Shown here: positions 13,696 through 58,798 of the stretch, piece after piece | Layout: every line of letters starts with the position of its first letter | Numbering within the stretch: the first letter of the stretch is position 1 | Assembly (NCBI GenBank): GCA_016185435.1 | Contig: JACPNN010000015.1 | Location: forward strand, 1-64,000 | DNA from: Candidatus Aenigmatarchaeota archaeon | GTDB taxonomy: Archaea > Aenigmatarchaeota > Aenigmatarchaeia > QMZP01 | Direction of reading: 5' to 3' | Length of the DNA stretch: 64,000 bases | Translations under genes and position numbers: made by a program | Notes under the pieces: generated by a model | Told to the model about the DNA's origin: nothing | Databases searched by the model: none | The model's input: the letters and a program-made list of their open reading frames with translations, nothing else

Positions 13696-13823
13696 AATCA
13701 AGTTCAGACTGCTCCACAGGGGAGGAATGCTGTGTCAATCTGTGCAGGCCGGCGGCCGAAGGCGTCTGCGACGACATTGACAGCGACGGCATACTTGATA
13801 CATGGGTGCCGAAGAACGGATGA
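13696..13823 (+). pseudogene. 3' tail of a Cys-rich secreted-type gene, copy 1
   Basis: An open segment without its own start encodes SDCSTGEECC, then Cys-rich sequence and DDIDSDGILDTWVP before a TGA. It is about 80% identical to 15253-15377. The DxDSDGxxD motif is a calcium-binding (dockerin/thrombospondin-3-like) loop. Both copies stop a few codons after WVP. They bracket the ATPase gene and look like broken ends of a surface-protein gene. Confidence 0.65.
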
Positions 13824-13938
13824 ATTGCCGCCCCTTAGATGGGCCATTTGCTTCTGTGCTTCCATTTCCCGTGCCATAAAGCTTATAAATTCTAAGTCAA
13901 ATATAATTAACGTAAAATAGATTCTGGGTTGTTCAGAT

Positions 13939-15219
13939 ATGACAAAAATCAGACAGGCTCTCGTGGACATGAACCCGTGGTGGGAGGGCGGGTTCAGGGC
14001 AGGATACAAAGAGAGGGAAATCTATGGCACGCTCCAGAAATTCATGCGCCTGCCGCAGATCATGGCCCTCACAGGCCTGAGGAGGGTAGGAAAAACAACC
14101 CTCATGCTCAAGATGGCTGAGGATGCCATAAGGAGGGGCCTGGACCCGAGAAGCATAGTCTATTTCTCCTTTGACGAATTCGGGGAGGCAAATATAAGGG
14201 GCATACTGGAGGAGTATGAGGCTGCTTCCGAAAACAGTCTGAGGAAGGGGAAATATCTGGTCATGCTCGATGAAATACAGAAGGTGGAGAACTGGGAGGA
14301 CCAGCTGAAGGCCATATACGACCTTTTCAAGGGAACTGTCAAGATAGTCATTTCAGGCTCAGAATCGCTGTTCATAAGGAAGAAATCAAAGGAAACGCTT
14401 GCAGGCAGGATTTTCGAATTCAAGGTTGAGCCCCTTTCCTTCCGGGAGTTCCTCATTTTCAGGGGTTTTGATTTCAGGCCGATAGGCCTCCACGAGAGGG
14501 AGTTAAGAAGGCTGTTTGACGACTTCATCCTGACACTCGGCTTCCCTGAGCTTGCGGATGTCAGGGACAAGGATGTGATAAAGAAGTATGTCAAGGAGAG
14601 CATTGTGGAGAAGGTTGTCTACAGGGACATACAGGGGCTTTTCAGGGTGAAGGATGTCTCTGTCATTGAATCACTTCTCAACATCATGATGGAGGAGCCG
14701 GGCCAGATCATGGAGGTTTCCGAGATAGGCAGACAGCTCGGCGTCTCGAGGCAGACCGCATCAATATACCTGTCATATCTCGAGAAATCCTTCCTTATCC
14801 GGAAGCTGTACAACTATTCGAAAAGCAGGAGGAAAGTCGAGAGGAAGCTGAAAAAATATTACCCGGCCATCGTTTCTGCCGAACTCCTCTTCAAAGACGA
14901 CGACCAATCGAAGTCAAAGGTGTTCGAATGGGCCATAGTGAATGAAATGAGGCCTGACTTCTTCTGGCGTGACCCCTACAAGAACGAGGTGGACATCATA
15001 TTGCCCGGCAGAAAGCCCCTGCCCATTGAAATAAAGTATGGAAAGACCGGCACGAAGGGATTGCTGCCCTTCATGGAGAAAACAGGCGCAAAGGAAGGCT
15101 ATGTTGTTTCCCGAAAGGAGGAAGGAATGCAGAAAGCCGGCAACAAAACAATACACATAATACCTGCTTTCAGGTTTCTTCTGGAGAGGCCATGGCTGAA
15201 ACAGGCGAAATCTGCCTGA
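13939..15219 (+). CDS. P-loop ATPase, AAA_14 plus DUF4143 family
   Basis: A 426-residue ATPase. Walker A is LTGLRRVGKTTL near residue 45 and Walker B is YLVMLDEIQ near 115. A sensor segment KIVISGSES follows. The C-terminal region has a winged helix (about 255-290, IGRQLGVSRQTASIYL) and a DUF4143-type segment with a degenerate restriction-like D..E.K pattern (NEVDIILPG..PIEIKYG). This large family is common in archaea and often mobile; function is unknown. The gene lies exactly between the two Cys-rich tail remnants. Confidence 0.85.
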   Translation: MTKIRQALVDMNPWWEGGFRAGYKEREIYGTLQKFMRLPQIMALTGLRRVGKTTLMLKMAEDAIRRGLDPRSIVYFSFDEFGEANIRGILEEYEAASENSLRKGKYLVMLDEIQKVENWEDQLKAIYDLFKGTVKIVISGSESLFIRKKSKETLAGRIFEFKVEPLSFREFLIFRGFDFRPIGLHERELRRLFDDFILTLGFPELADVRDKDVIKKYVKESIVEKVVYRDIQGLFRVKDVSVIESLLNIMMEEPGQIMEVSEIGRQLGVSRQTASIYLSYLEKSFLIRKLYNYSKSRRKVERKLKKYYPAIVSAELLFKDDDQSKSKVFEWAIVNEMRPDFFWRDPYKNEVDIILPGRKPLPIEIKYGKTGTKGLLPFMEKTGAKEGYVVSRKEEGMQKAGNKTIHIIPAFRFLLERPWLKQAKSA

Positions 15220-15252
15220 AACAGCAATATCCGGCTTTATTAGCGCATTGAT

Positions 15253-15377
15253 AATCATGTTCAGACTGCTCCACAGGGGAGGAATGCTGCGCCAGCCTGT
15301 GCAGGATCGCTTCTGAGGGCGTGTGTGATGATATTGACAGCGACGGGATACTCGACACCTGGGTTCCTTTTGGCTAG
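15253..15377 (+). pseudogene. 3' tail of a Cys-rich secreted-type gene, copy 2
   Basis: The second copy of the segment at 13696-13823. It encodes CSDCSTGEECC, then DDIDSDGILDTWVPFG and a TAG. In-frame stops immediately upstream show it is not a functional gene. Identity is nearly complete over the first 36 bases and falls to roughly three quarters later. Confidence 0.65.
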
Positions 15378-15390
15378 TGAGTATCAATCT

Positions 15391-15460
15391 TTTCCTCCGC
15401 AAAAGCTTTATAAGCAAGTATTACCAAAAATAGTAATAACTATTATAAAAAGTGGTAATA
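15391..15460 (+). promoter_or_regulatory. promoter and inverted-repeat operator of the HEPN-MNT module
   Basis: A TATA-like AGCTTTATAAGC is followed by TATTACC..GGTAATA and a nested ATAGT-AATA-ACTAT palindrome right before the start codon. TA operons usually repress themselves, and the MNT protein here has a helix-turn-helix, so this is a likely autoregulatory site. Confidence 0.55.
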
Positions 15461-15967
15461 ATGAAAATTGAAGGCCTCAGGCCAAAGGTGCCGAAGGATG
15501 GCGAACCCCTGAAGAACTTTTTCCTCAACTGCGAGGGCAGAAGGAAATTCGTCCATGACACAAAAGACCACTACAAGCAGCACCTGAAGAAGTCGAAGCA
15601 CGATTTTTACAGGGCCGAGGCCGAATTCAGGGACATGTGCTGGGATTGGACAATAATCAAAGCGTATTATTCGATACACCATGCGGGAAATGCCATGTTG
15701 TCAAGGGAGAAAGGCGTGTTCTCCAAGGACCACTCGTGCCTGATAGTTGCGCTGAATTACTGGAAGTTCATAGATGAGAGCCTGTTTGAAAAGCTGGTTG
15801 AGGCCTATGAGCACTTCTCAGGAATACTCAGCCTTGACATTGCATTCCAGCTGAGGAAGATAGGGCAGTATTCCGTCGATGAGTGGGAGGAGCTGTCAAA
15901 GGAGGATGCGGAACTTATCCTTAACCTCGCAAGGGAATTCGTAAGGTTTGCGGAGGGGAAAATATGA
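15461..15967 (+). CDS. HEPN domain protein of a HEPN-MNT module
   Basis: A 168-residue helical protein of the HEPN superfamily, with the CWDWTIIKAYYSIHHAGNAM helix typical of HEPN proteins paired with nucleotidyltransferases. The long frame opens at GTG 15452, but ATG 15461 fits the palindromic leader. The next gene overlaps by 4 bp (ATGA). In characterised pairs HEPN proteins are RNases neutralised by AMPylation; the usual RX4-6H motif is not obvious here, so it may be a substrate-binding or non-RNase variant. Confidence 0.75.
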   Translation: MKIEGLRPKVPKDGEPLKNFFLNCEGRRKFVHDTKDHYKQHLKKSKHDFYRAEAEFRDMCWDWTIIKAYYSIHHAGNAMLSREKGVFSKDHSCLIVALNYWKFIDESLFEKLVEAYEHFSGILSLDIAFQLRKIGQYSVDEWEELSKEDAELILNLAREFVRFAEGKI

Positions 15968-16590
15968 CAGAGGTGTCAGAGATAATACCCGGAACAAGGG
16001 CAAAGATGAGGATAGCCACGGCCATATACGAGAATCCCGGCATACACCTGACTGCGCTCATAAGGGAAGTGAAGGCTTCCCCAAACACAGTCCTGGATTA
16101 TGTGAACAAGCTGAGCAGCATGCATGTGGTGAAGCAGGCTGGTTTGGGGGGAAGGAAGAAAGTCCACATACGGACACTGTTTCCTGACCTCTCCTCGGAG
16201 CGCTCCGTGATCATATTCTCCCTTGTCGAAGAGGAGAAGAGATTAAGATTTCTGGAAAAGTACAGGCATCTGATGCCATATGTCGGGCAACTGTGCGACC
16301 TGCTGGGCAAAAAGGCAGAGTTTGCCCTCATATACGGCAGCTATGCCAGGCTTGCTGCTGACAAAACAAGCGATATCGACCTGCTGGTTGCAGGCGGTTT
16401 GGACAGCAAAGTAAGGGAAAGGATAAGGGAAATATTTGCCACATCTGATGCCGAGCTGAGCATGAAAATCGAGACCCTGAGGCAGTTCCGCAGAAACAGG
16501 GATAAGCCCCTTTATCAGAATATAATGAAGGAGCATGTTGTCGTTTTCGGAAGCTTTAATTTTGTCCGGCAGCTCTCCCCTCCTGCCTGA
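15964..16590 (+). CDS. MNT-type nucleotidyltransferase with N-terminal HTH
   Basis: A 208-residue protein. Residues 10-70 form a winged helix (HLTALIREVKASPNTVLDYV). Residues 115-200 form a minimal nucleotidyltransferase with YGSYARLAADKTSDIDLL, matching GSX10DXD. It probably AMPylates and silences the upstream HEPN partner and represses the operon. ATGA overlap with the HEPN gene. It is convergent with radA, 29 bp away. Confidence 0.85.
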   Translation: MTEVSEIIPGTRAKMRIATAIYENPGIHLTALIREVKASPNTVLDYVNKLSSMHVVKQAGLGGRKKVHIRTLFPDLSSERSVIIFSLVEEEKRLRFLEKYRHLMPYVGQLCDLLGKKAEFALIYGSYARLAADKTSDIDLLVAGGLDSKVRERIREIFATSDAELSMKIETLRQFRRNRDKPLYQNIMKEHVVVFGSFNFVRQLSPPA

Positions 16591-16619
16591 TGCATGGGAC
16601 AGGCCTTGCCGAGGAAAGA

Positions 16620-19947: not shown

Positions 19948-19994
19948 ACTTCTGGATGGAGGCAGATATTATATTAGGCTTTATATTAGATATT

Positions 19995-26773: not shown

Positions 26774-27139
26774 GATTAGATTTTAGAACAATAGATTTAT
26801 AATGGAATGCCCTTTATGTAATGTCTCACATAGACAGGAAAGAGAAGCGTTTTCATAGACATAGACACTCCCCTTCCGTCTTGGAGCCACACGCAAGTTG
26901 AAAAGGTCACATCTCATCTAGTAGCGAAATTCAGTTAGGCGATAATTGTCAAAAAAGGCGAAAAGGTGACCCTCCTTGTAGCACCAATGGATGGTTTCTA
27001 CAATGGGGGGCAGAGGAGAGGACAACTCAGGCAAAACCCAGATGAGGCTTGCCCTTGTCGCGCCTGAGGAAGAGATGGCCCTTGTCCCGGGGCTGTTTGC
27101 GGAGCTGTTCAGGGGATATGAGGGGCAGAGATAGACAGT
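26774..27139. other. intergenic region with small ORF fragment ending in ELFRGYEGQR
   Basis: A possible 43-codon frame from about 27003 to 27134 encodes VAPEEEMALVPGLFAELF then RGYEGQR and stops. The last nine codons are the 27-bp repeat also present at 28350-28376. No ribosome site and no recognisable family; it may be a gene tail left by rearrangement. Confidence 0.35.
27102..27128 (+). repeat. 27-bp direct repeat, left copy flanking HEPN-MNT
   Basis: GAGCTGTTCAGGGGATAT followed by GAGGGGCAG is identical at 27102-27128 and 28350-28376. The copies bracket the minus-strand HEPN-MNT operon and its promoter with only 11 bp left over on the MNT side. Confidence 0.8.
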
Positions 27140-27793
27140 TTACCGCTTTTGCTGTCCGTACTCTTTTACCCATATCTCCCTGATCTCCGGCGTCAGCCTG
27201 AAGGAGACAAAAAGCTTCTGCAATTCCCGGGATTTTTCTATGGGGCAGAGGATTGCATTCTTGCCTATTTTCAGCCCGCCTGCCTCCTGCAGGTAGCCTG
27301 CTGTCCTGTATTCCTTTCCCTTCCTTTTCTGGGAGTAACCGAAAAGCCTTCTGACGAACAGGGATTTGTCCCTGCCGCTGAGCTCTGACATGTCATACGA
27401 AAAGAGGGAGAAATGCCTCAATCCTTCTTTAATTCCGCTATATTTTCCGTATAGGCTTATGCCTGTGCTAATTATTTCATTCCTTATCGCCTGCCATCTG
27501 TAGGTTCCAAGGCTGCCGACTATGCATTTGATCGGCATTTCCATCCCCATCAGGGACCACTTCTTCTCAACAATTGCATAGAACCTCTTCTCCGCATCTT
27601 TGATAATGCTTTCCGCCTTCGTTATGACTTCTTCTGAACTGACATCTATGAAGACGTCTATGTCGCTTTCCTTATCGTACTCCCCTGTGGCCACAGAGCC
27701 GAAAAGTATCGCATTTTTTATGTACCTTCTGGCCTCCGTATTGCTGAAAACAATTTCCAGGAAGTTATACACATAAGGAAGAGGGTCTTTCAT
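27140..27793 (-). CDS. MNT-type nucleotidyltransferase
   Basis: A 217-residue protein. LFGSVATGEYDKESDIDVF matches GSX10DXD of minimal nucleotidyltransferases, early in the protein. The C-terminal half is unusual and lysine-rich (RRLFGYSQKRKGKEYR). A longer frame opens at 27853, but ATG 27793 overlaps the HEPN stop as ATGA. It pairs with the HEPN gene upstream and probably modifies it. Confidence 0.8.
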   Translation of the reverse strand: MKDPLPYVYNFLEIVFSNTEARRYIKNAILFGSVATGEYDKESDIDVFIDVSSEEVITKAESIIKDAEKRFYAIVEKKWSLMGMEMPIKCIVGSLGTYRWQAIRNEIISTGISLYGKYSGIKEGLRHFSLFSYDMSELSGRDKSLFVRRLFGYSQKRKGKEYRTAGYLQEAGGLKIGKNAILCPIEKSRELQKLFVSFRLTPEIREIWVKEYGQQKR

Positions 27794-28194
27794 ATTGTTT
27801 CTCCTATTATCTCCTCGACAATCTCTCTGATTTTGTAGGCAGCCTTTATGCAATCCTCAACGATCTGCCTTTCCCTTTCCCTGCCATAGCACAGGATAGA
27901 TCTAAACCTTTCCTGATTCACAAGCAGAGGCAATAGTTTTGCCTTGTGCGGAAAATCAAAGCTGAATTTTTCGCTTGCAATTTTCTCAGATGCGAAGAAC
28001 CTGTGATTTACATTGAAGCCTGGGGATATGAGATTCTTTCTGTGCAGCATGAGTGCAAATAGGTCGCATGCAGCCTCTGAGCACGCAAAGCCTACAAGCT
28101 TCTGCATCTCGACTAGTGTGCCTGCCTTTATCTTGTCTTCCACATCTCTGAACAGGCTTTTGATGCTCTTGATATGTTCATCTGCGCTTGGCAT
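27790..28194 (-). CDS. HEPN-like partner of the MNT gene
   Basis: A 134-residue helical protein with GFACSEAACDLFALMLHRK and a C-terminal helix KAAYKIREIVEEII, consistent with the HEPN fold. First gene of the two-gene module; its stop overlaps the MNT start. The RX4-6H RNase motif is not obvious. Assignment rests partly on the pairing. Confidence 0.6.
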   Translation of the reverse strand: MPSADEHIKSIKSLFRDVEDKIKAGTLVEMQKLVGFACSEAACDLFALMLHRKNLISPGFNVNHRFFASEKIASEKFSFDFPHKAKLLPLLVNQERFRSILCYGRERERQIVEDCIKAAYKIREIVEEIIGETI

Positions 28195-28349: not shown

Positions 28350-28376
28350 GAGCTGTTCAGGGGATATGAGGGGCAG
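28350..28376 (+). repeat. 27-bp direct repeat, right copy flanking HEPN-MNT
   Basis: Identical to 27102-27128. Both are followed within ten bases by GCAGAGATA. See the left copy. Confidence 0.8.
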
Positions 28377-28475: not shown

Positions 28476-29765
28476 TCACTTGTATTTCCTTTTCCCTCCT
28501 GCATACAGGTTTTTGGTGACATATGTTGATTTCGACACATATGTGCCTGATCCTTCATCAAGGAATGTATGCGAAGCCGGGGGCCTGTATATCTCCATTT
28601 CCCCGGTTTCGGCTACAGAAGCTGATGGAAGGGAAAAGGCGACATTGGGAGGCGTGTAAGGGGTTATTGGGGCAGGCGTGCTGATGCTTGTCGGAAATGT
28701 CCAGAGGAGCTCGCCCCTGGTGTTTATGGCATACAGGTTGCAGTCCCATGAGCCGAAGTAGAGGACGCCTTCATGTGGCACAGGCCTGTTGATCACTTTT
28801 CCCTGGGTGGGGAATTTCCACTTCAGCTTGCCGTCAAGGGTGAGGGCATACACGTTGAAGTCTGCACAGCCGAAATATATCCCGCCTTCATAGACTGTCG
28901 GCGGATATACCACATAATCTTCTATCGGGAATTTCCACAGGAGCTTCCCGTCAAGGGAAAATGCATAGAGGCTATCGTCCTGCGAGGAAAAATAGACAAT
29001 GCCGCCCTCTATTCCTGTAGCCCTTGACCTGATTATCCCCTTTGTCGCGTATTGCCACAGGATTCTGCCATTAGAATCTATCGCATAAAAATTGCCGTCA
29101 GACGAGCCGAAATAGATGATGCCGTTTGCGGCCCTTGGAGAGCCCACGACACCACCCGTCGGGAAGCTGAAAATCTCATTCCCTTTCACGTCAACCGCAT
29201 ACAGGTTCCTGTCGAAAGAGCCTATGTATATGGCATTCTCATGCACAGCAGGATCGCTTATTATGGGGCCCTTTGTGGCAAATTTCCACAGAAGCTTTCC
29301 TTTCCTGTCCAGGCAGTACAGCTGGTGATCCTCGCATCCGAAATAGATTCTGCCATCATGCAGGAGCGCCTTCGAAGCTATGCTGCCTCCGGCCTCAAAT
29401 TTCCAGAGGAGCCTGCCTTTCAGGTCCAGAGCATACACATTCCTGTCCAGTGACCCGAAGACTATCATCTCGTTTGACACCGATATGTCTCCCACATTGG
29501 GTCCGTTGGTCGAAAACCTCCAGATCTCCTTTCCCTTCAGGCTTACCGCATACAGATTGTGGTCGCAGCAGGAGAAATATATCACATCCCTGTGGATTGC
29601 AGGAAGGCAGTCTATGCTGCCTCCCGTGCCTGTGTTGAAAAGGATCGACTGGTCAGGATATTCCCTCGCATGGGCCAGCAGCTTGACGGATTCAAGCCTG
29701 TTCATTATCTCGCTGCTCTCGCCGGGCACACTGGCTGTAAAACGGCTCTCCATATACCTGGACAT
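28476..29765 (-). CDS. eight-bladed PQQ-type beta-propeller, paralogue 1
   Basis: A 429-residue protein made of eight repeats of about 38 residues, each with the tryptophan-docking pattern G-K-x-L-W-K-F (GKEIWRF, GRLLWKF, GKLLWKF and so on) and Y-F-G-S/C-x-D. No signal peptide or membrane segment, so it should be cytoplasmic, unlike classical PQQ enzymes. A conserved tail follows the propeller: GTYVSKSTYVTKNLYAGG then KRKYK. Two more copies lie at 32371 and 34042. Possibly a scaffold; ligand unknown. Confidence 0.85.
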   Translation of the reverse strand: MSRYMESRFTASVPGESSEIMNRLESVKLLAHAREYPDQSILFNTGTGGSIDCLPAIHRDVIYFSCCDHNLYAVSLKGKEIWRFSTNGPNVGDISVSNEMIVFGSLDRNVYALDLKGRLLWKFEAGGSIASKALLHDGRIYFGCEDHQLYCLDRKGKLLWKFATKGPIISDPAVHENAIYIGSFDRNLYAVDVKGNEIFSFPTGGVVGSPRAANGIIYFGSSDGNFYAIDSNGRILWQYATKGIIRSRATGIEGGIVYFSSQDDSLYAFSLDGKLLWKFPIEDYVVYPPTVYEGGIYFGCADFNVYALTLDGKLKWKFPTQGKVINRPVPHEGVLYFGSWDCNLYAINTRGELLWTFPTSISTPAPITPYTPPNVAFSLPSASVAETGEMEIYRPPASHTFLDEGSGTYVSKSTYVTKNLYAGGKRKYK

Positions 29766-29868
29766 ATTAAAGGTATACGATGTCTCTTTAAATCATTGCT
29801 TGTGCTTCTTTCCTGTATAAAGGCTCTTGGAAATCAAAATCCGAATTCCCTGAAATTCCAGTCAAAGC

Positions 29869-30519
29869 CTACTTTTTTCCCAGCCTCTCCATAAATTCCC
29901 TGCACATACTTCTCGTCTCCTTCAGCGTCTTCTCAGGCACATCGATATGGAAATCGTGCACAAGGTCGTCAAGGAAATCGTGGAGGTACAGGGAAAAGCG
30001 GAAGTCGCCATGCTCAGACTGCCATCTGCATTCCTTGATAATGATGTCCCAGTTCACGTTTATTTCATTGATAATGGAAGCAGCATCCTGCCTGTCGCCT
30101 GGCCTGTCTGTCATGCATTTCGAGATAATAATGTCTTCAGGGGAAATGACAGATACTGTAAGGCTGCCGAACTCTATTTTTTCCCTTATCCTGTCCAGCA
30201 TCCCCTGCGATATTGTGAGCCTGAAGACTTTGCCATCGAAAATATCCACCACATATTCCCCCATCTCCAGCCTGCAGGGTTCCCTCTCATTCTCTTTTCC
30301 TGGCACGAATGTTTGCCTGAAACCTGCCCTTTCAAGGACGCTGGCCAGATACTTCCTTTCATTCTCAAAAAGCGCCACTAAGTCTATGTCCTTTGTTGCC
30401 TTTTTCGAGAAATTGTAGAAAAGCATGGCCGATCCGCCTATCACAAGCACTTCAACCTTCTTCTTGCACTGCTCAGCCATCAGCTTGAACAGCTTAAGCT
30501 GGCGATCCAAGTTAATCAT
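29869..30519 (-). CDS. AbiEii-like nucleotidyltransferase (toxin)
   Basis: A 216-residue protein. VEVLVIGGSAMLFYNFSKK followed by ATKDIDLV is the nucleotidyltransferase core of the AbiEii/DUF6036-like group, and SPEDIIISKC plus the DRQDAASII segment fit the same group. It begins one base after the stop of the upstream regulator. In type IV TA systems such transferases are toxins repressed and neutralised by the partner. Confidence 0.7.
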   Translation of the reverse strand: MINLDRQLKLFKLMAEQCKKKVEVLVIGGSAMLFYNFSKKATKDIDLVALFENERKYLASVLERAGFRQTFVPGKENEREPCRLEMGEYVVDIFDGKVFRLTISQGMLDRIREKIEFGSLTVSVISPEDIIISKCMTDRPGDRQDAASIINEINVNWDIIIKECRWQSEHGDFRFSLYLHDFLDDLVHDFHIDVPEKTLKETRSMCREFMERLGKK

Positions 30520-30520
30520 T

Positions 30521-31147
30521 CTATCTCCTGAGCCTGTCAAAATCTGACATACTGAAAGGTATGAAGACCCCCCATTTGTGCTGTATATCAGCAAAGTCAG
30601 ACGACTTCATTGGAGGGATTATGTATTTCTTCTTTAACGGGGCTCTCATCATGCTCTTCAATATCCTCCCGTCAATTCTTGGCAGCCTGAAGAATTTCCT
30701 TGCAAGGGCATATAATGCTCCGACATGCCTTTCCAGCCTCTCATGCTTTGCAAGCCTATAAAGCAGGCTGAAATCCCCAACTTTTCTGAAAAGCTCCAGG
30801 GATGCCAGAACCACCCTGTAATCTTTTGTGAGAAGGGCCCATATGATCACTTCTTCTGCCCTGACATCTCTTCCGTATACCTTCTGGACATAGGGAAACT
30901 GTATTCCAATGGATGAATTCTCATTCAATACCTCAAAAAAGCCCTTGCTGCCCACAGGCCTCAGCTGCAGGGGGGATATCTCATACAGCCTTTTGCCCCT
31001 CTTTCCCCGGCTTGTCTTTACATATCCTTCCTTTCTCATCAGATGTAGATAGACTGCAGCAGTCTTCTTATGGATATTCATAAGGCTGGCAAAGCCCTCA
31101 AGCGTGTGCAGGCCTTCTGCCTTTTTTGCCATTTTCCTCCAGTCCAT
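30521..31147 (-). CDS. AbiEi-like winged-helix protein (antitoxin/repressor)
   Basis: A 208-residue protein. The N-terminal 65 residues are a winged helix (LEGFASLMNIHKKTAAVYLH, KEGYVKTSRGKRGKRLYEI). The rest is helical and carries EEVIIWALLTKDYRVVLASL, as in AbiEi-type partners. First gene of the pair with the nucleotidyltransferase at 29869. It likely binds its own promoter at 31150-31220. Confidence 0.65.
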   Translation of the reverse strand: MDWRKMAKKAEGLHTLEGFASLMNIHKKTAAVYLHLMRKEGYVKTSRGKRGKRLYEISPLQLRPVGSKGFFEVLNENSSIGIQFPYVQKVYGRDVRAEEVIIWALLTKDYRVVLASLELFRKVGDFSLLYRLAKHERLERHVGALYALARKFFRLPRIDGRILKSMMRAPLKKKYIIPPMKSSDFADIQHKWGVFIPFSMSDFDRLRR

Positions 31148-31149
31148 AC

Positions 31150-31225
31150 TGCTTCTCCTTATAGAGTTTAGATTATTTTTTGTTATTCTGATAAATAATG
31201 TAGATTTACATATATATAAAGATTA
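31150..31225 (-). promoter_or_regulatory. AT-rich promoter upstream of the AbiE-like pair
   Basis: The minus strand upstream of 31147 has TTTATATATATGTAAATC (about 31202-31221), a TATA-like box, and several AT-rich words. No clear palindrome is seen. Confidence 0.4.
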
Positions 31226-31272
31226 AGATCCAGAAATGACATTCCTTTGGCCATCAATCGGAAAAAAATAGA

Positions 31273-31356
31273 TTACTTGTACTTCCTCTTCTTGCCTGCA
31301 TACAGGCTCTTGCTGACGTATGCCGGCTTTGAAATGTATGTGCTTTCGCCTTTTTC
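31273..31356 (-). pseudogene. detached 3' tail of a PQQ-propeller gene
   Basis: On the minus strand this encodes GESTYISKPAYVSKSLYAGK then KRKYK and a TAA. It matches the last 27 codons of the propeller genes (GSSTYVSKSTYVSKSLYAGK). No propeller coding sequence precedes it. With the intact tail at 32371 it brackets the HTH-MNT/HEPN module. Confidence 0.75.
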
Positions 31357-31365
31357 TGAGTTGCG

Positions 31366-31402
31366 ATAAATTTATATAGCAGGTGATATAAAAATATATC
31401 AG
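31366..31402 (+). promoter_or_regulatory. TATA box and perfect palindromic operator for HTH-MNT/HEPN
   Basis: GATAAATTTATATAGC holds the TATA-like box. TGATATA-AAAA-TATATCA at 31384-31401 is a perfect 7-bp inverted repeat ending one base before the ATG. Its place between TATA and start suits repression by the HTH of the first gene product. Confidence 0.6.
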
Positions 31403-31927
31403 ATGATAAAAAATTATACCACCTACAGGATTTTGCAGCTTTTTTTCGACTGTCCTACAAAGAGCTTTCATCTGAGGGAGATATGCAGGCTGACCAAGCT
31501 GGGCATGCCTTCTGTAAGGAACCATGTAAAAAAGCTGGAAAAATGGGGCTTCATAATGAGAAAGAAATCAGGTGTTTATGAGGGCTATATATCAGATAGG
31601 AGCGAAATGTTCAAAATTTACAAGAGGAATGACATGCTGATTAGGCTGAAGGAATCAGGATTAATTGAATTCTTGGTGGAGACTTTCATACCGGATGCCG
31701 TGGTGCTCTTCGGCTCTGCTGCAAGAGGAGAGGACATCGAAAGCAGCGACATAGACCTCCTTTTGATAGCAAAGGAGAAGGAAGTTGATCTGAAAAGATT
31801 CAAGAAGGATCTCAAAAGGAATATAAGCCTCCATTTTGAAGGAAAGGTCTCGTACATACCCAAAGAACTGCTTAACAATATAATCAATGGTATTGTGGTT
31901 TACGGCTATTTGAGAGTGTTTGAATGA
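31403..31927 (+). CDS. HTH-MNT nucleotidyltransferase
   Basis: A 174-residue protein. Residues 1-70 are a winged helix (FHLREICRLTKLGMPSVRNHV). Residues 95-165 are a minimal nucleotidyltransferase with LFGSAARGEDIESSDIDLL (GSX10DXD). It is likely the antitoxin and repressor of the module. Stop overlaps the HEPN start as ATGA. Confidence 0.85.
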   Translation: MIKNYTTYRILQLFFDCPTKSFHLREICRLTKLGMPSVRNHVKKLEKWGFIMRKKSGVYEGYISDRSEMFKIYKRNDMLIRLKESGLIEFLVETFIPDAVVLFGSAARGEDIESSDIDLLLIAKEKEVDLKRFKKDLKRNISLHFEGKVSYIPKELLNNIINGIVVYGYLRVFE

Positions 31928-32352
31928 AATTGTGGTCTGAAGCACAGGAAGATGTAAGGAAAGTAAAGCCTGACAGAGAGATGGCCAGATCGATGGTGAA
32001 GATGATTGAGGTCAGGATGAAAGAACTGGAACCCAAGGATAGGAAGGAGTTCGCATCCCTTGTTGTGGAAGACTACTATGAGATTATCAAGGAGGCTGTA
32101 ACGGCCCTGATGGCGACTGATGGCTACAAAACATTGAGTCATGATGTCCTGATAGGATATCTGAAAGAATTCTTCCCACAATTTTCGGAATACGAAATCA
32201 GTCTGGCAGACCATCTCAGGCAACTGAGAAACAAAATTGCCTACAAAGGATTCTTTGTCAATCCGGACTTTCTTGAAAGGAACGAGGAAAAAATTAAGGC
32301 ACTTGCGCTCAAGCTGATAGCTATCTTAAGGGAGAGGCTGGCATCGGAGTGA
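31924..32352 (+). CDS. HEPN-domain partner
   Basis: A 142-residue helical protein, HEPN-like, with EDYYEIIKEAVTALMATDGY and HLRQLRNKIAYKG. The last segment aligns with the HEPN RNx(L/I)xH loop but has Tyr where the catalytic His should be, so RNase activity is doubtful. It stops 19 bp before the end of the convergent propeller gene. Confidence 0.75.
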   Translation: MKLWSEAQEDVRKVKPDREMARSMVKMIEVRMKELEPKDRKEFASLVVEDYYEIIKEAVTALMATDGYKTLSHDVLIGYLKEFFPQFSEYEISLADHLRQLRNKIAYKGFFVNPDFLERNEEKIKALALKLIAILRERLASE

Positions 32353-32370
32353 ATTTTTGAGGTATGCGTG

Positions 32371-33657
32371 TTATTTATACTTCCTCTTCTTCCCGGCATA
32401 CAGGCTCTTGCTGACGTATGTTGATTTCGACACATATGTGCTGGAGCCTTCGTCGAGAACTATTTGTGAAGTTTGGGGCTTGTAGATTTCAAGAGACTCT
32501 GTTTCCAAAGATTGTGTTTTGGGAACGTTGAAGGCCACGTTTTCAGGCGTGTATGGAGCAAATGGCGCTGGCGTTCCGATGCTGCTGCTGAATGTCCACA
32601 AAAGCTTGCCTTCGGTTGTCACAGCATATAATCTGCAGTCCCACGAACCGAAATACAGCACACCATCCAATGCAGAGGGCTGGTTGACAACAGGCCCATG
32701 GGTTGGGAATTTCCATTTCACCCTTCCGACAAGGGAAAGGCAATACAAATTGTGGTCCTGGCAGCCTATGTAAAGATGGCCTTTGTAAAGAATTGGAGGA
32801 TAAACGCAGTAGTCATCAAGCATGATTTTCCATAAAAGTCTTCCATCTGGGGCCAATGCATACAGGTTGTCGTCGAGGGAGGAAAAATATATTATGTCGC
32901 CAATGATTCCCAAAGCCCTTGGTCTTATAGGGCCATTTGCGCTGAACTTCCACAATAAATTTCCTTCACAGCTTACTGAATAAACATTTCCATCTGCAGT
33001 TGGAAAGATAATAGAATCTTTAGCTTCTTTCGGAGAGCCTACCGGGCTCGAGGCTGGGAATTTGAAGACTTCTTTCCCATCAATTGTCAGGCAGTAAAGG
33101 TTCCTGTCAAATGAGCCGAAATAAACTTTTCCGTCATGGATGCACGGATCGCTTACTATCGGCCCATTGGTATTGAATGTCCACAAAAGCCTTCCTTTAA
33201 GGTCCAGGCAGCAGAACTTACCATCCCCTCCGCCGAAAAAGATTTTTTCTCCATTAATCACTACTTTTGATCCTAATGGCCCATTGGCCGCAAATTTCCA
33301 CAACAGAGTCCCATTAAGGCCAACTGCATAAATGTTCTTGTCAAGGGAGGGAAAAACAACCATTTTTTCAGTCACGCTAAAATCGCCAACTATCGGCCCG
33401 TTAGTATTGGCACGCCATAGTTCCTTTCCCCTCAAGGTCAAAGCGTATAGGTTATGATCGCATGACGCGACATATATAATGCGATTGTGGACAACAGGCA
33501 AAGTCTCGATGCTGCCTCCTGTTCCTATATTAAGAACCACAGAAAAATCAGGATATTCTCTGGCATGAGTCTTTGCCTCAACCGCCATTAATCTCAACAT
33601 CATATCGTCTGGTTTATCCTGGCTATACGTGAACTGGGTTTTGACATATTTCGACAT
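32371..33657 (-). CDS. eight-bladed PQQ-type beta-propeller, paralogue 2
   Basis: A 428-residue close paralogue of the gene at 28476, again eight blades (GKELWRANTNGP, GTLLWKFAANGP, GRLLWTFNTNGP and others), no signal peptide, and the tail TYVSKSTYVSKSLYAG then KKRKYK. One blade has lost its Trp (GKEVFKF), as does the same blade in paralogue 1, so the copies descend from one ancestor. Cytoplasmic; function unknown. Confidence 0.85.
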   Translation of the reverse strand: MSKYVKTQFTYSQDKPDDMMLRLMAVEAKTHAREYPDFSVVLNIGTGGSIETLPVVHNRIIYVASCDHNLYALTLRGKELWRANTNGPIVGDFSVTEKMVVFPSLDKNIYAVGLNGTLLWKFAANGPLGSKVVINGEKIFFGGGDGKFCCLDLKGRLLWTFNTNGPIVSDPCIHDGKVYFGSFDRNLYCLTIDGKEVFKFPASSPVGSPKEAKDSIIFPTADGNVYSVSCEGNLLWKFSANGPIRPRALGIIGDIIYFSSLDDNLYALAPDGRLLWKIMLDDYCVYPPILYKGHLYIGCQDHNLYCLSLVGRVKWKFPTHGPVVNQPSALDGVLYFGSWDCRLYAVTTEGKLLWTFSSSIGTPAPFAPYTPENVAFNVPKTQSLETESLEIYKPQTSQIVLDEGSSTYVSKSTYVSKSLYAGKKRKYK

Positions 33658-33698
33658 GATAAAGTCTTGAAAAATGTATTTTTAAACTTAGCTTTGCT

Positions 33699-33765
33699 TT
33701 ATTTGTACTTCCTCTTCTTGCCCGCATACAGGCTCTGGCAATGCATGCTGATTTCGGACAAATGA
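33699..33765 (-). pseudogene. second detached PQQ-propeller tail
   Basis: On the minus strand SLYAGKKRKYK and a TAA are intact; upstream of that the match to the tail coding region decays after about 65 bp. It sits 42 bp before the start of paralogue 2 and, with the end of paralogue 3 at 34042, brackets a broken PIN-domain fragment. Confidence 0.6.
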
Positions 33766-33886
33766 CAGCTTTATAGGCCTTTATGGCAATAACTAATTAT
33801 GAAGCCGAAAGACATCTTTATCAGCCACCGTCTGGATATGATGGTGAAGAGAATAAGATCAAGAAAACTGGTTACAGATGAGATTG

Positions 33887-34045
33887 TCAGATCAGTTCTT
33901 TAGGATGCATTATCCTAATTTCCAGCAGCGTTTCCAGAACCTCATTGTGCACAAGTCTGCTGTCTATGGTGACAAATGTTTTGACATGTTTCTGCCTGGA
34001 ACAGGCAAGGTGGAAAGCATCCATGAAATCAGTCCTGATAGTCAT
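33887..34045 (-). pseudogene. C-terminal fragment of a PIN-domain (VapC-like) toxin
   Basis: The minus strand encodes TDFMDAFHLACSRQKHVK then TFVTIDSRLVHNEVLE and stops at 33887. The D-A-x-H-L-A and F-V-T-x-D motifs are the third and fourth acidic motifs of PIN nucleases. The N-terminal half, with the first acidic residue, is missing. It follows the stop of propeller paralogue 3 directly. A short plus-strand frame at 33799-33903 is probably not coding. Confidence 0.65.
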
Positions 34046-35337
34046 CTATAGCCTTTTCTTCTCCCCAAGTATTCCTTTTTGGTGCCCCCATATGTTGGTT
34101 CCATGGGACCGTATACAACGGCTTCATTCAAGCTTCTGGCAGAGCCGTACTTTTCCTCCTTCCTGTAGGTTTCAGGCGTCCACGTAAAGGAGTGAAGCGC
34201 ATTGTCTGCCTTCTGCTGAAGATCAGCTTCGAAAGGCGCCTGGCTGCTGATGCTTGTCATAAAGTCCCAAAGGATGTCCCCATCTTTCGCATTGAAAGCA
34301 TAGAATTTTGCTCCCCAGTTCCCTAGGAGAAGTATTTTCCTATGAATGGCAGGAGCAGCCCATATAGGGCCTATGGTGGGAGCCTTCCATGCAAGGGAAT
34401 GATCCTTTAGGACTACAGCATATACATTCCCGTCAGCAGAGCCGAAATAGATCTTTTCCCTGTCGAAAGCAGGTTCTACCGAAGTTGCATCATTGGCATG
34501 GAAACCCCAGAGGAGCTTTCCTTCTAGGGATATGGCTTTCATTATGCCATCCCTTCCGCCCAGGTAGAGAACGTCATCGTGAAGAGCGGCATTAGCCCAG
34601 ATGTCGGCCTTCAGGCCGAGGGTCCATAAAAGCCTTCCTTCTTCCGTGACAGCGTAAAGTCTCTTGTGGAATGAAGGGAAATAGATGATTCCATTGCTGA
34701 AAATGGGGTTAGACATTATAAGGCTGTTAGTCTCGAAAGTCCAGTTCAGGCTGCCATCAAGGTTGACGGAATAGAGGTTCTTGTCGTAGCTGCCGAAGTA
34801 TATGGATCCTTTGCCCAGCGCAGGCCCGCTTGCTATTGGACCCTTCGTTGCGAACTTCCATAGAAGTTCCCCTTCCTTCGAAAGCGCATACAGGTTCTGG
34901 TCCTCTGAGCCGAAAATTATCCTGTCATGGAGGACAAGAGGCCGGGAAAAGATCTTGCCTTCTGTGGCAAATTTCCACAAAATCTCCCCGTTAAGGGAAA
35001 CGGCATACATGTTCCTATCATGCGAGCCTACATACAGGGCTTTTCTCTCTGCTGCCATGTAGCCGCTTATAGGTCCTTCTGTCTCGATGTGCCACATTTC
35101 CTTCCCTTTGAAGTCGAGGCAGTAAATTCTCCTGTCGCATGCGCCAAAAAATATTTTGTCCCCCATCACTATCGGCACGCCGTTCATTATGCTTCCGCCT
35201 TCGCCTATGCTGAAAAGGCCGGGATCGCTTGCCTGCCTTACTGCCTCGAACATTCCAACTATCTGCAGGCTATCAAACTGGGATGGAAGGTGTGCGCTAA
35301 CAGTTTCAGCGTGGTAATCGGCTATATTGTATGGCAT
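34042..35337 (-). CDS. eight-bladed PQQ-type beta-propeller, paralogue 3
   Basis: A 431-residue propeller, more diverged than the other two, with eight docking motifs (GKEMWHIETEGP, GEILWKFATEGK, GELLWKFATKGP and others). Its tail is related but altered (PTYGGTKKEYLGRRKGYR). No signal peptide. The 5' end faces the phosphomannomutase gene, 62 bp away, across a divergent promoter. Confidence 0.82.
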   Translation of the reverse strand: MPYNIADYHAETVSAHLPSQFDSLQIVGMFEAVRQASDPGLFSIGEGGSIMNGVPIVMGDKIFFGACDRRIYCLDFKGKEMWHIETEGPISGYMAAERKALYVGSHDRNMYAVSLNGEILWKFATEGKIFSRPLVLHDRIIFGSEDQNLYALSKEGELLWKFATKGPIASGPALGKGSIYFGSYDKNLYSVNLDGSLNWTFETNSLIMSNPIFSNGIIYFPSFHKRLYAVTEEGRLLWTLGLKADIWANAALHDDVLYLGGRDGIMKAISLEGKLLWGFHANDATSVEPAFDREKIYFGSADGNVYAVVLKDHSLAWKAPTIGPIWAAPAIHRKILLLGNWGAKFYAFNAKDGDILWDFMTSISSQAPFEADLQQKADNALHSFTWTPETYRKEEKYGSARSLNEAVVYGPMEPTYGGTKKEYLGRRKGYR

Positions 35338-42372: not shown

Positions 42373-42503
42373 ATTAAATATTGCCCTGGCCTGAATAAAT
42401 CCTAAAGCATGGACCAGCCAGCCAGTGGAGGGGATTTAAAAGCCTTTTGCGTCATATAAATTAGTAAGCCTCGGTGGCTCAATGGTAGAGCAGCTGACTT
42501 GTA

Positions 42504-42550
42504 GCTGCTGATATTGCAATCTTCCACGGGGAAGAAATGAGCGGCAGGAT
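42504..42550 (+). other. tRNA-Thr intron 1, canonical position 37/38
   Basis: A 47-nt archaeal tRNA intron after A37. It starts GCTGC and ends GGCAGGAT. Inner helix CTGC/GCGG extends the bulge-helix-bulge. A competing pairing of CTGCTGATAT with ATATCAGCAG across the 3' site could affect splicing. Confidence 0.8.
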
Positions 42551-42572
42551 ATCAGCAGGTTGAGGGTTCAAG

Positions 42573-42716
42573 GCCAAGCCCTTTCAATAGGCTTTTCTTC
42601 CAAAGAAAAGCCCATACGGCAAAAGAAGGCATTACAGAGGCCGTATGTAATCAGAGGGGTGTAGACCCGTAGAGGGGATACATCCCCTCTGGGGAAAGAA
42701 AGGGGTGCGCTGGAAA
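42573..42716 (+). other. tRNA-Thr intron 2, T-loop position 59/60, carrying the 43-bp element
   Basis: A 144-nt intron in the T-loop. It contains copy B of the palindromic element (42587-42629), a second long pairing CATACGGC/GCCGTATG, a hairpin AGAGGGGATACATCCCCTCT and a closing CCCTTTC/GAAAGGG helix. The junction helix TTCA/TGGA with three-base bulges fits the archaeal splicing endonuclease; the inner extension is weaker than in intron 1. Confidence 0.75.
42587..42629 (+). mobile_element. 43-bp palindromic element, copy B
   Basis: Identical to 4059-4101. It begins ATAGGCTTTTCTTCC and ends CGGCAAAAGAAGG. Here it is embedded in the T-loop intron of tRNA-Thr, where it is removed by splicing and so does no harm. 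Confidence 0.7.
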
Positions 42717-42769
42717 TCCCTCCCGGGGCTTTTGATTTTTTCTCCGCCAGATAATTTCCATGAACAACG

Positions 42770-55302: not shown

Positions 55303-55530
55303 TTAACCCCTGTACTTTTCCCCGTCCCTTTCCTCCTCAATTTGCCTAGAGTACATTTTCCTTCTCTTCTCTCTTGCTGTCCAGTCTTCCTGCCTAATTC
55401 TCCTCAAGTAACTTTCTCTCCTCCTCTCTTTTGAATCTGTTGATGCCGCAATCACCGCAAACAACATTATCACTACAACTACGAAAAACCCAATGACTCC
55501 GATTCCTATGCTTTCCCCTGCACCTTCCAT
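55303..55530 (-). CDS. small single-span membrane protein
   Basis: A 75-residue protein with an N-terminal membrane helix (IGVIGFFVVVVIMLFAVIAA) and an Arg/Glu-rich helical tail. AAAGGAGG lies 7 nt before the ATG. Follows the membrane protein at 55551 by 20 bp. Confidence 0.6.
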   Translation of the reverse strand: MEGAGESIGIGVIGFFVVVVIMLFAVIAASTDSKERRRESYLRRIRQEDWTAREKRRKMYSRQIEEERDGEKYRG

Positions 55531-55550
55531 TTGATTCCTCCTTTCTCTAA

Positions 55551-56165: not shown

Positions 56166-56542
56166 GAATAAAGCCTCCTTCGAGTGGTTAAAATCGGAAG
56201 ACATCGCCAGATAAGAGCTCCCACTACTAGGAACTATGCCAGAGACAATGTCGACTTCATTTGAACTGTATCCATTGCCTCCGGATTCTTTCTGAAGACC
56301 TTTGTCCTTCCTATAGATCTACATAAAAAATCATGCAGACCTTTCCTATAGTGATGAATAGATGAGCATTATGCGCTTCTGTAAAGCTGATAGGACAGGA
56401 AGGCATTTAAAGGGTTCTGCTGCCTATATGGCATGACTTTCCTGCGCTATATGCGACCAGATCCGGAAATGTGAAAAAGCACCCGACTGCGCATATTTAA
56501 GCCTTCAGGCGGATATTGATTGTATAAATTCAGGGTGAAACT
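56166..56542. other. 377-bp divergent intergenic region
   Basis: The spacer between the minus-strand membrane gene set and L10e. A TATA-like CATATTTAAGCC (56492-56503) fits L10e. The middle contains two CTTTCCTATAGTG/CCTTCCTATAGATC repeats (about 56308 and 56340) and no gene. Confidence 0.4.
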
Positions 56543-57070
56543 ATGGGACTCCGTCCGGCAAGGTGCTACAGGACCCTCAAGAGGGCCTATACAAGGTTTA
56601 GCAGGGCCAACAAGAGCAAGGACTATGTCAAAGGAATCCCTGAGTCCAAGATACACAGATTTGAATTCGGGAATGCGAAGAGGCCTTACCAATATTCGCT
56701 TTGCCTTACAGTCAGGGACACTGTCCAGATAAGGCATAACGCCCTGGAGGCCTGCAGGGTTTCCCTGAATAAGAATTTGGATAAAAGAGTAGGAACTGAT
56801 GCATATTTCGGAAAAGTGCTTGTCTACCCGCACCAGATACTCAGGGAAAAGATGCTTGCCACAGGCGCGGGGGCAGACAGGTTCCAGTCAGGCATGCGCC
56901 TGGCTTTTGGCAAACCTATAGGGACTGCCGCAAGGGTTTATTCCGGGCAGAGCGTAGTTGAGGTGAGGGTTGACGAGGCTGGCCTGGAGGCCGCAAAGAA
57001 GTCTATGCACATAGCCGGGAGCAAGCTGCCCTGCCCTAGCAGTATTTTGGTGAAGAGAATAGCTGGCTGA
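56543..57070 (+). CDS. rpl10e: large-subunit ribosomal protein L10e (uL16)
   Basis: A 175-residue archaeal/eukaryotic L10e. MGLRPARCYRTLKRAYTRFS, GADRFQSGMRLAFGKPIGTAAR and the LPCPSSILV end are conserved. It sits at the ribosomal peptidyl transferase side near the P-site tRNA. Independent confirmation of archaeal origin. Confidence 0.96.
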   Translation: MGLRPARCYRTLKRAYTRFSRANKSKDYVKGIPESKIHRFEFGNAKRPYQYSLCLTVRDTVQIRHNALEACRVSLNKNLDKRVGTDAYFGKVLVYPHQILREKMLATGAGADRFQSGMRLAFGKPIGTAARVYSGQSVVEVRVDEAGLEAAKKSMHIAGSKLPCPSSILVKRIAG

Positions 57071-57092
57071 TTTTGGCTTCTTGATGTCGAAT

Positions 57093-57920
57093 TCATTTCT
57101 GGAGCAGAAGATGCAGCCTGTACAAATCAGTGGCAGGAGGCGCAAGATAGAACTCAATCCTGTCCGAATAGTTTCTGACGATTTTCAAAAATTCCTCATA
57201 TGGCTCTTCAAGCTGGTAGGCCTTCCAGTTGAGTGCCAGGACAGGCCTTCTGCCTGTCTTTTTCTTTTCAGAAGACTGCACAATTGCCTCTGAAATCAAT
57301 TTTACCCACACAACTTTCGTTCCGGCTGAACCAAGAATGAAGCCGTCAATGTCCTCCAATGGCATGATGTCCTTGGCTCTTTCAGGAGACATGCTGCCGC
57401 CATAGATTATCCTTATTTTATTTGCAGCTTCTTCTGAATATTCTTCTTCAAAGGCCTTTCTCATTGCTGCTGCCATCGGCCCGATCTGCTCAGGCCCGGG
57501 AGGATGAACATCTGCTTTTCCGCTGCCCCTTACCGCCCACCCGGGCTCGTAGCTGAATACGGTTTTCAAGGCAGTTTCTTCGCCTATTTCCTTCAGGATT
57601 TCCCTGAGCCTGTTTTTGAGAATTTCGGCTATTTTCAGCTTTTGTTTCCCGTCAAGAAGGCTCCAGGGCTTGCCTATATCCTCCCATTTCTCGCCAAAAA
57701 GGACAATATTGTCCTCCAGGCCTGCATCAATAGCAGGGATGAGTTTTCTCGGAATGATTTCAAAAGGCTCCTCATGCTCGGAGTGACATATTAGTACGCC
57801 AGCCGCCCCTGCAGCCTTCAGGTGGTGGAAGGCAAGCTGGCCTGTCCTTGCGAACTGGTGCTTGCCGTCTGAAGGAAATATATCCACTTTCTGGGCGATG
57901 AGCTTTATTGGGGTCATCAA
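57093..57920 (-). CDS. tpiA: triosephosphate isomerase, circularly permuted order
   Basis: A 275-residue enzyme with every TIM motif but in rotated order. The protein starts at the third strand (KLIAQKVDIFPSDGKHQF). His46 is in ICHSEHE, Glu125 in FSYEPGWAVRGSG and the phosphate loop in IIYGGSMSPE. After the last canonical helix (VKLISEAIVQSS) and a lysine-rich linker, the first strand PVLALNWKAYQLE appears with catalytic Lys233, then the second strand FYLAPPATDLYRL. In normal TIM this lysine is near residue 12. The start is confirmed by the duplicated 5' end at 58689. Confidence 0.85.
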   Translation of the reverse strand: MMTPIKLIAQKVDIFPSDGKHQFARTGQLAFHHLKAAGAAGVLICHSEHEEPFEIIPRKLIPAIDAGLEDNIVLFGEKWEDIGKPWSLLDGKQKLKIAEILKNRLREILKEIGEETALKTVFSYEPGWAVRGSGKADVHPPGPEQIGPMAAAMRKAFEEEYSEEAANKIRIIYGGSMSPERAKDIMPLEDIDGFILGSAGTKVVWVKLISEAIVQSSEKKKTGRRPVLALNWKAYQLEEPYEEFLKIVRNYSDRIEFYLAPPATDLYRLHLLLQK

Positions 57921-58002
57921 TATTTATCGGCTATATGCTTTAAATGTACAGGCTTTCTCTGGCTGCCCGTTGGCTGATGCTGCAAGCCTCTATCAGACCG
58001 AT

Positions 58003-58018
58003 AGCTTTTTATATAGTG
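58003..58018 (+). promoter_or_regulatory. TATA-like box of vapBC
   Basis: AGCTTTTTATATAGTG lies about 30 bp before the antitoxin start. It is immediately inside the cassette bracketed by tpiA 5' copies. Confidence 0.45.
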
Positions 58019-58044
58019 GAAACAAAATTTCCATGGTGAAAAAA

Positions 58045-58269
58045 ATGGAAAAAATAAGACTGGAAAAGCAGGGGAGAATTCTCATACCGAAAGGCGTGAG
58101 GGAGAAGCTTGGCGTAAGGGCAGGGGAGGAAATGAGCATTCAGGTGGAGCGGAGGGGAATAGTTCTGAGGGCCTTCAAGTCGCCAAAGGATTTCTCCGCC
58201 GAGCTCAAGGGCTGCGTGAAGGAGAGCAGGATAGATCCCCTTACCCTGAAGAAGATATGGGAGATGTGA
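58045..58269 (+). CDS. vapB: AbrB/MazE-like antitoxin
   Basis: A 74-residue swapped-hairpin antitoxin. KIRLEKQGRILIPKGVRE is the AbrB/SpoVT DNA-binding signature, and the tail (SAELKGCVKESRIDPLTL) wraps the toxin. GGTGA lies 5 nt before ATG 58045; an upstream ATG at 58033 is possible. The stop and the toxin start are adjacent (TGAATG). Confidence 0.88.
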   Translation: MEKIRLEKQGRILIPKGVREKLGVRAGEEMSIQVERRGIVLRAFKSPKDFSAELKGCVKESRIDPLTLKKIWEM

Positions 58270-58677
58270 ATGATATTCATCGACAGCAACATATGGTGCT
58301 ACTATTTTGACAGCTCATCAAAAGAGCATGCATCAATATCATCCTATATAGACGGCATTCTGGGCAGGAAAGAAATAGCGATGAACACTCTGGTGCTGAT
58401 GGAAGTCTCCCATTATCTGATAAAGAACCTGGGCTCGATAAAAGGCAAGGAGAAGGTTGAGGCCATGCTTGGTTTCCCTTTTGCTGTCAGGAATTTTGAT
58501 TATGACCTCCTGCTTGAATCGGTAGAAATGCTTTCCAGCTACACCCACACAGGCATTGGAGGGAGGGACGCCACAATACTGGCCACGATGAAGATGCTGA
58601 ACATAAGGCAGCTTGTCACGCATGACAAGTCATTCAGGAAGATTGATTTCATTGAAGTCATTGATCCTGCGGATTAG
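58270..58677 (+). CDS. vapC: PIN-domain toxin VapC
   Basis: A 135-residue PIN nuclease. FIDSNIWCYYF holds the first acidic residue, NTLVLMEVSHYL the second, TGIGGRDATILATM the third, and QLVTHDKSFRKID the fourth. An RNase that probably cleaves tRNA or rRNA when the antitoxin is lost. The module lies between tpiA and a copy of its 5' end. Confidence 0.9.
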   Translation: MIFIDSNIWCYYFDSSSKEHASISSYIDGILGRKEIAMNTLVLMEVSHYLIKNLGSIKGKEKVEAMLGFPFAVRNFDYDLLLESVEMLSSYTHTGIGGRDATILATMKMLNIRQLVTHDKSFRKIDFIEVIDPAD

Positions 58678-58688
58678 GGGGTTTTCGC

Positions 58689-58798
58689 GCCGCTTTCAGG
58701 TGGTGGAAGGCAAGCTGGCCTGTCCTTGCGAACTGGTGCTTTCCGTCTGAAGGAAATATATCCACTTTCTGGGCGATGAGCTTGATGGGGAACATCAT
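58689..58798 (-). pseudogene. 110-bp copy of the tpiA 5' end
   Basis: On the minus strand it starts ATGATGTTCCCCATCAAG and runs into the same residues as tpiA (IKLIAQKVDIFPSDGK, QFARTGQLAFHHLKAA) before leaving the frame. It matches 57811-57920 at more than 90% of positions. It lacks all later coding sequence. Both copies have the same orientation, so vapBC is bracketed by direct repeats. Confidence 0.85.

Follow-up and report, generated by a model that had tools for sequence, protein, structure and literature searches.

The stretch of 64,000 nucleotides analysed here (the window) represents contig C9 of a 1.35-Mb draft genome of 'Candidatus Aenigmatarchaeota archaeon' in 23 contigs, judged archaeal from its RpoH, ribosomal and archaellin-like proteins. 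In the window, small cassettes of predicted toxin–antitoxin (TA) genes lie between direct copies of the end of a gene, at least one of which is an orphan, i.e., a fragment detached from an intact gene. The cassette cargo, represented by VapBC, HEPN-MNT and AbiE modules, contains PIN, HEPN, NTP_transf_2 or AbiEii domains above the curated cut-off, and the pairs were named as predicted TA modules from these domains.

An intact tpiA-like gene (57093–57920, minus strand; Pfam TIM, E 7.5e-31), encoding a circularly permuted triosephosphate isomerase (TIM), adjoins a VapBC cassette. The 5'-end of this gene (57811–57919, minus strand) is 94% identical over 109 bp to an orphan 5'-end copy at 58689–58797 (minus strand), which carries a start codon and a TATA-like upstream sequence; the codon differences between the two are five synonymous and one nonsynonymous. 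The cassette on the plus strand consists of an open reading frame (ORF) for a VapB-like antitoxin (58033–58269, from the ORF listing, with the start codon picked by eye), located directly upstream of vapC, encoding the PIN-type toxin (58270–58677; PF01850, E 2.6e-13).

Gene tails are duplicated in the same manner around beta-propeller genes, with copies of the propeller tail at positions 28476, 31273, 32371 and 33699. The intact genes P1 (28476–29765, minus strand; PF13570/PF13360) and P2 (32371–33657, minus strand; identified by its ORF and the list of propeller repeats) are separated by two TA-like cassettes and an orphan tail. This in-frame fragment of 80 bp (31273–31352, minus strand) is 81% identical to the P2 tail (32371) and differs from it by seven synonymous and four nonsynonymous codon changes. 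On its P2 side lies a cassette (31403–32352, plus strand; PF18765, E 1.4e-8) of HTH-MNT (31403–31927) and HEPN-like (31924–32352) genes, the Pfam search with the latter ORF giving no match. Between the orphan and P1 lies a TA-like pair (29869–31147, minus strand) of a DUF6036 nucleotidyltransferase gene (29869–30594; PF19502, E 1.2e-12) and its upstream ORF. Another orphan propeller tail (33699–33756, minus strand), 85% identical to the P2 tail, stands beside a decayed PIN remnant at about 33800–34040, in which a PIN-like C-terminus was read by eye. Three paralogous beta-propeller genes of the PQQ-like type occupy the region 28476–35337 (minus strand), and a further one is located at C17 105863–107146; the basic tail at the C-terminus of the three proteins (..AGKKRKYK) is conserved. 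Tandem duplication of the three propeller paralogues may contribute to the 3' propeller fragments.

Two fragments of the tail of a Cys-rich/TSP3-like gene flank an ATPase cassette (13939–15219, plus strand), assigned by the Pfam domains AAA_14/DUF4143. The left fragment (13696–13810, plus strand) is in-frame and 95% identical in amino acids to the intact tail encoded at C1 4494–5873; the right fragment of 115 bp (15253–15367, plus strand) is 82% identical to the left copy and 87% identical in amino acids to the intact tail. Directly after the second fragment, a HEPN and HTH-MNT pair is found (15452–16590, plus strand; PF05168, PF18765/PF01909). The intact parent gene on the other contig (locus L050) encodes a secreted-looking protein of 459 amino acids, the C-terminal tail of which is Cys-rich and Ca-binding-like. 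Paralogue loss may be included in the history of the propeller and Cys-tail loci.

The shortest pair consists of two identical 27-bp gene-tail remnants (reading ..AELFRGYEGQ) at 27102–27128 and 28350–28376 (both plus strand), neither of which is joined to an intact gene. They enclose a HEPN-MNT cassette (27140–28194, minus strand) with the genes for MNT (27140–27853; NTP_transf_2, E 1.8e-9) and a HEPN-like protein (27790–28194); the latter has no Pfam match and was called HEPN by pairing and paralogy only.

In the preliminary description of this DNA, six loci, including the leader of a CARF gene, were attributed to one pattern, in which the neighbouring gene, where identifiable, stays intact. 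Four of these loci are as described, while the 27-bp pair lacks an intact gene and the CARF leader contains a hairpin element of another kind. Intact neighbours are present at tpiA and the propellers; they are absent from the 27-bp pair and from the Cys-tail locus, where both copies in the window are fragments.

Recurrence of gene-end copies in the genome

About half of the genome (665 kb of 1.35 Mb) was scanned by unbiased self-comparison. The mechanical count gave 22 gene-end/orphan pairs per 665 kb, among which at least 12 are good loci, mostly at 3' ends. In an order-1 Markov control of the same size (665 kb), no pair of repeats at comparable spacing scored 48 bits or more. Two gene-end/orphan pairs were found in 700 kb sampled from six relatives, the contrast being somewhat inflated because the sample of the own genome was partly picked around TA genes. 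The pairs at C17 147961, C13 8710 and C22 8017, being likely paralogous or spurious, were excluded from the good loci; the pair at C23 178711 is more likely a 5'-end case.

At loci outside the window, the gene names of which were read from the sequence, HTH-MNT/HEPN cargo accompanies orphans of an NrdD-like gene (48 bp, 98% identity) and of the RtcB gene (78 bp, 96%), and MNT-HEPN cargo those of a DEAD-type helicase gene (30 bp, 100%) and of a small HTH gene (213 bp, 91%). VapBC together with two membrane ORFs was found with the orphan of a Zn-ribbon gene (168 bp, 98%), a RelBE-like pair, recognised by eye, with that of another propeller gene (63 bp, 94%), a membrane ORF with that of an IleRS-like gene (59 bp, 86%), and two unknown ORFs with that of a ribonucleotide-reductase-like (RNR) gene with a product of 1532 amino acids (102 bp, 91%). 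Orphans also form arrays. On contig C1, three orphan Cys tails lie between an ATPase, AbiEi/AbiEii and a DUF5678/protease-like pair, in an array adjoining the gene for the intact 459-amino-acid parent, and on contig C7 two orphan tails lie between a caspase-like ORF, a PIN-like ORF (both by eye) and HTH-MNT. The tail of the 459-amino-acid protein alone has at least six further genomic occurrences beside TA cassettes, i.e., at least seven in all. Apart from Cys tails and copies of the hairpin element, dispersed truncated gene ends were scarce elsewhere in the sampled half of the genome; therefore, the orphans adjoin their parent gene.

A similar scar is present in the genome G025, belonging to another family of the same order, where a racemase-like ORF lies between the RtcB gene and a downstream orphan RtcB tail (81% identity) with 30 synonymous and two nonsynonymous differences from the gene. 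Since the cargo here is a racemase-like ORF, the process is confined neither to TA cargo nor to the genome studied.

Local direct repeats span 9 of the 42 genes of the PIN and MNT types, as against 16 of the 464 other ORFs in these stretches (Fisher P = 6e-5), so that spanning is about seven times commoner for the former; several of the 16 spanned ORFs are TA-like in their own right. A recurrent insertion architecture at gene ends, proposed in the preliminary description together with a wider search against a control, is borne out at the RNR, NrdD, RtcB, helicase, IleRS-like, Zn-ribbon and HTH genes, by 22 pairs against none in the control, and the suggested excess of TA genes between direct repeats over other ORFs was also confirmed. 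A single family of mobile elements was considered and rejected, as the cassette proteins are mostly 25–45% identical or unrelated.

Divergence of the copies and origin of the cassettes

Comparison of gene and orphan copies at ten loci revealed 58 synonymous and 16 nonsynonymous codon differences, a synonymous fraction of 0.78; the RNR (8/0), RtcB (3/0) and Zn-ribbon (2/0) loci contain synonymous differences only. Local duplication was simulated in 500 runs per model: with all change placed in the orphan, the synonymous fraction was 0.22 ± 0.05, and with half of the changes being synonymous ones in the gene, it was 0.34 ± 0.05; the observed 0.78 was reached in 0 of 500 runs of either model. In a larger pair set, in which the Cys pairs are not independent, the differences are distributed over codon positions 1, 2 and 3 as 35/29/127. 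The RNR orphan has a frameshift, yet its change is still synonymous. The excess of synonymous differences indicates that both copies evolved within working genes, and, judging from the sequences, gene and orphan most simply appear to have diverged as working genes in different genomes. The helicase and 27-bp pairs, being identical, are uninformative on origin.

In most pairs, the similarity does not extend past the start or stop codon, beyond which the sequences are unrelated, an exception being the Zn-ribbon copies, which run further. Such edges would be expected of orthologues with differing intergenic regions rather than of a cut blind to genes. The length of the repeats ranges from 27 to about 300 bp and varies even inside one gene family. 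The cassette at the NrdD-like gene matches an HTH-MNT/HEPN/arcC locus at C23 119.6–121.3 kb over 1,674 bp with 88% identity and stops inside arcC at the 7-bp sequence AAGGCCA, which is also present in the NrdD tail; since it breaks off inside arcC, the far end is not a fixed site. At the RtcB, helicase and IleRS-like loci, the last ORF of the cassette continues into the orphan.

Taken together, the cassettes probably, if by a modest margin, arose through one-sided capture of donor DNA, anchored by homology at a gene end, with illegitimate closure of the other side and retention of TA cargo through punished loss. Donor DNA of a related organism, comprising the end of a gene X and the adjacent TA or defence operon, would pair with the recipient's own gene X, and the recipient would copy or take in the donor gene end plus the operon beyond. 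On the far side, which lacks homology, an illegitimate (microhomology) joint would then lead back into the recipient gene X, giving the order of intact X with a donor-type end, TA operon, orphan end of the other X and old neighbourhood. Repeated events at one gene end would produce arrays of cassettes split by orphan ends, such as those on C1 and C7. The recombination route may be end invasion and joining or integration of a circle, and uptake of DNA from outside is presumed; formation of a circle followed by a single crossover would leave an identical structure. Cassettes between direct repeats should be readily lost, while TA cargo would kill the losing cells. TA enrichment may therefore arise because TA inserts punish their loss, whereas other repeat-flanked inserts normally vanish, retention by addiction being a plausible cause.

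A number of observations weigh against capture at gene ends. The NrdD copies have one difference, which is nonsynonymous, and the helicase copies have none, so that neither argues for a foreign copy. A far joint with microhomology is known at one locus only (arcC/NrdD), the sole known donor continuation. The strong 3' polarity needs an added argument, namely, that 5' insertions would part a gene from its promoter, and the orphan tails upstream of an intact gene on C17 and C1 need a truncated donor flank or paralogue loss. The cassettes are compact (0.5–1.9 kb, often one operon, with margins of 0–120 bp), which also fits a mobile unit. A search for Ku was negative, and joining would need another pathway. 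Contig searches by tpiA and NrdD, with no genome of the same genus available, gave no close relative with an empty or donor site; therefore, the order of events was not observed.

The main rival, unlikely on balance, is that the cassettes are small integrative elements at gene-end attachment (att) sites, moved by a tyrosine recombinase that acts in trans or has since disappeared, with the replacement gene end supplied by attP. The 3' polarity, the gene left intact, the displaced gene-end fragment and the compact cassettes fit such elements, as does the synonymous divergence, attP being selected to restore the gene. Genes of the integrase family do exist at C6 6305 and C17 90.6 kb, but these are the only PF00589 matches in the genome and none lies within any cassette. 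Moreover, a separate specificity would be required for each of about a dozen unrelated gene ends, visual inspection of 18 orphan starts, made with no formal search for motifs, revealed no common motif, the repeat length is not fixed and the NrdD cassette ends inside arcC. A more far-reaching and doubtful possibility is that TA operons are self-perpetuating addiction cassettes using host gene ends as exchangeable att sites without a dedicated integrase, whereby a circle of TA genes and gene end would be excised by recombination between the flanking ends and re-enter that gene in a different cell or species. As a separate observation, the region C6 3523–6820 (G000, locus L069) on a 15-kb contig contains a Phage_integrase gene adjoining two PIN genes and is a candidate intact element.

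The orphan ends could also be remains of deleted tandem paralogues, with cassettes in or replacing the deleted bodies. The loci C17 105189 and C1, where an orphan tail precedes the intact gene, fit this reading best. It also agrees with the three propeller paralogues in the window and with a Cys-rich tail present at least seven times in the genome, and old functional paralogues would show synonymous divergence as well. As a general explanation it is improbable, as the same scar is borne by normally single-copy housekeeping genes (RtcB, RNR, IleRS-like, tpiA), and each case needs a long-kept full tandem copy followed by loss of all but one end. Target-site duplication by fill-in of long staggered breaks, suggested in the preliminary description, agrees with the identical or near-identical pairs (helicase, 30 bp; the 27-bp pair; NrdD, 47/48), and could survive for these only. 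The repeats do exceed ordinary target duplications in length, as noted in that description. Fill-in is nevertheless very improbable, being already contradicted at most loci by the synonymous excess over the simulated range (0.22–0.34), by repeats mostly ending at gene termini and by a ten-fold variation in length. Least credible of all is an assembly artefact, in which contigs of co-occurring strains were misjoined, so that the gene end of one follows the cassette of the other. The draft of 23 contigs is probably metagenomic, and the copies are diverged at strain to species level, but the joints are gap-free, and their overlap of at most a few bp is presumably insufficient for a k-mer assembler; the number of affected loci exceeds a dozen, the same scar is present in the independent assembly G025, and almost no such pairs are found in other drafts of the phylum.

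Hairpin element and permuted triosephosphate isomerase

The leader of the CARF gene (4016–4153, plus strand) contains 41-bp exact repeats (copies 4016–4058 and 4112–4153) around a dispersed 43-nt hairpin element (4059–4101), and was rejected as another gene-end cassette, a different mechanism being involved. The 23-nt core of this element has 11 exact genomic copies; the sites include 42587–42629 in the window and about ten further places in the genome. Many copies occupy an intron position (T- or D-loop) of tRNA-like genes, several of them in intron-bearing ones, and the remaining copies are located in intergenic or leader regions with direct repeats of 12–41 bp at their flanks, so that the element looks like a mobile one derived from a tRNA intron. 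The region 42470–42730 (plus strand) contains a tRNA gene apparently split by two introns, in the anticodon loop and in the T-loop; its Rfam tRNA match (E 0.0025) is below the threshold, and ARAGORN reported no tRNA in the window.

The protein encoded by the tpiA-like gene (57093–57920, minus strand) is a natural circularly permuted TIM, beginning near strand 3 and with the canonical N-terminus (NWK motif) placed last. The residues of the catalytic motifs are present, and un-permuting the sequence raised the best PDB match from 76 to 84 bits, giving one continuous alignment. The same permutation was found in a second genome of the same class (G094, locus L140; 33% identity over residues 2–270), with no match in the other 154 of the 156 searched genomes of the phylum. 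A literature search turned up no earlier report of a natural circularly permuted triosephosphate isomerase.

Related systems and significance

Arrays of orphan immunity genes of the type VI secretion system in V. cholerae were explained by homology-facilitated illegitimate recombination (HFIR) (PMC5361080), which was also described in E. coli conjugation (PMC3240628). Common to HFIR and the cassettes are one homologous anchor, one illegitimate far joint and cargo beside a conserved gene, as well as displaced native remnants downstream and arrays arising through repetition. The anchor from a diverged donor is represented here by the 58 versus 16 codon differences, and the microhomology far joint by one locus only. 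In contrast, the events described here are spread within a single archaeal genome over numerous housekeeping genes unrelated to each other, with gene-end stubs only and TA-enriched cargo. The HFIR model for V. cholerae is the closest precedent for the proposed capture of TA cargo at gene ends.

In Thaumarchaeota, elements with a tyrosine recombinase integrate in the 3' ends of protein-coding genes (PMC6563490). There, too, the end supplied by the element keeps the gene intact and direct repeats flank the insert, but the sites are generally short and the elements larger, mostly with an integrase, whereas the repeats described here are diverged and 27 to about 300 bp long, with no integrase in the cassettes and no common core seen by eye. 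Mitochondrial introns of Tremella fuciformis carry duplications of host-gene ends (PMC7315562); a foreign gene end likewise comes with the insert, displaces the original one and is accompanied by extra truncated genes, although the process is intron-driven, N-terminal and organellar, in contrast to TA and defence operons in which no homing endonuclease was seen. Chromosomal integrons share small cassettes, often of TA genes, split by similar repeats, as on C1 and C7. Here the repeats are coding ends of genes of the respective locus, and an integron cassette array was rejected, since the repeats differ between genes, with no shared attC-like site and no integrase in the arrays.

The synonymous-divergence test separates gene ends borne by donor DNA from target duplications and can be used on any single genome, with no empty site needed. 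The scars, about a dozen of which in this archaeon are datable, bear on the way in which TA modules pass from one chromosome to another when no mobile element is visible. They point to ordinary homologous recombination at conserved gene ends combined with an imprecise joint; the persistence of unstable repeat-flanked inserts would then be due to selection by addiction.

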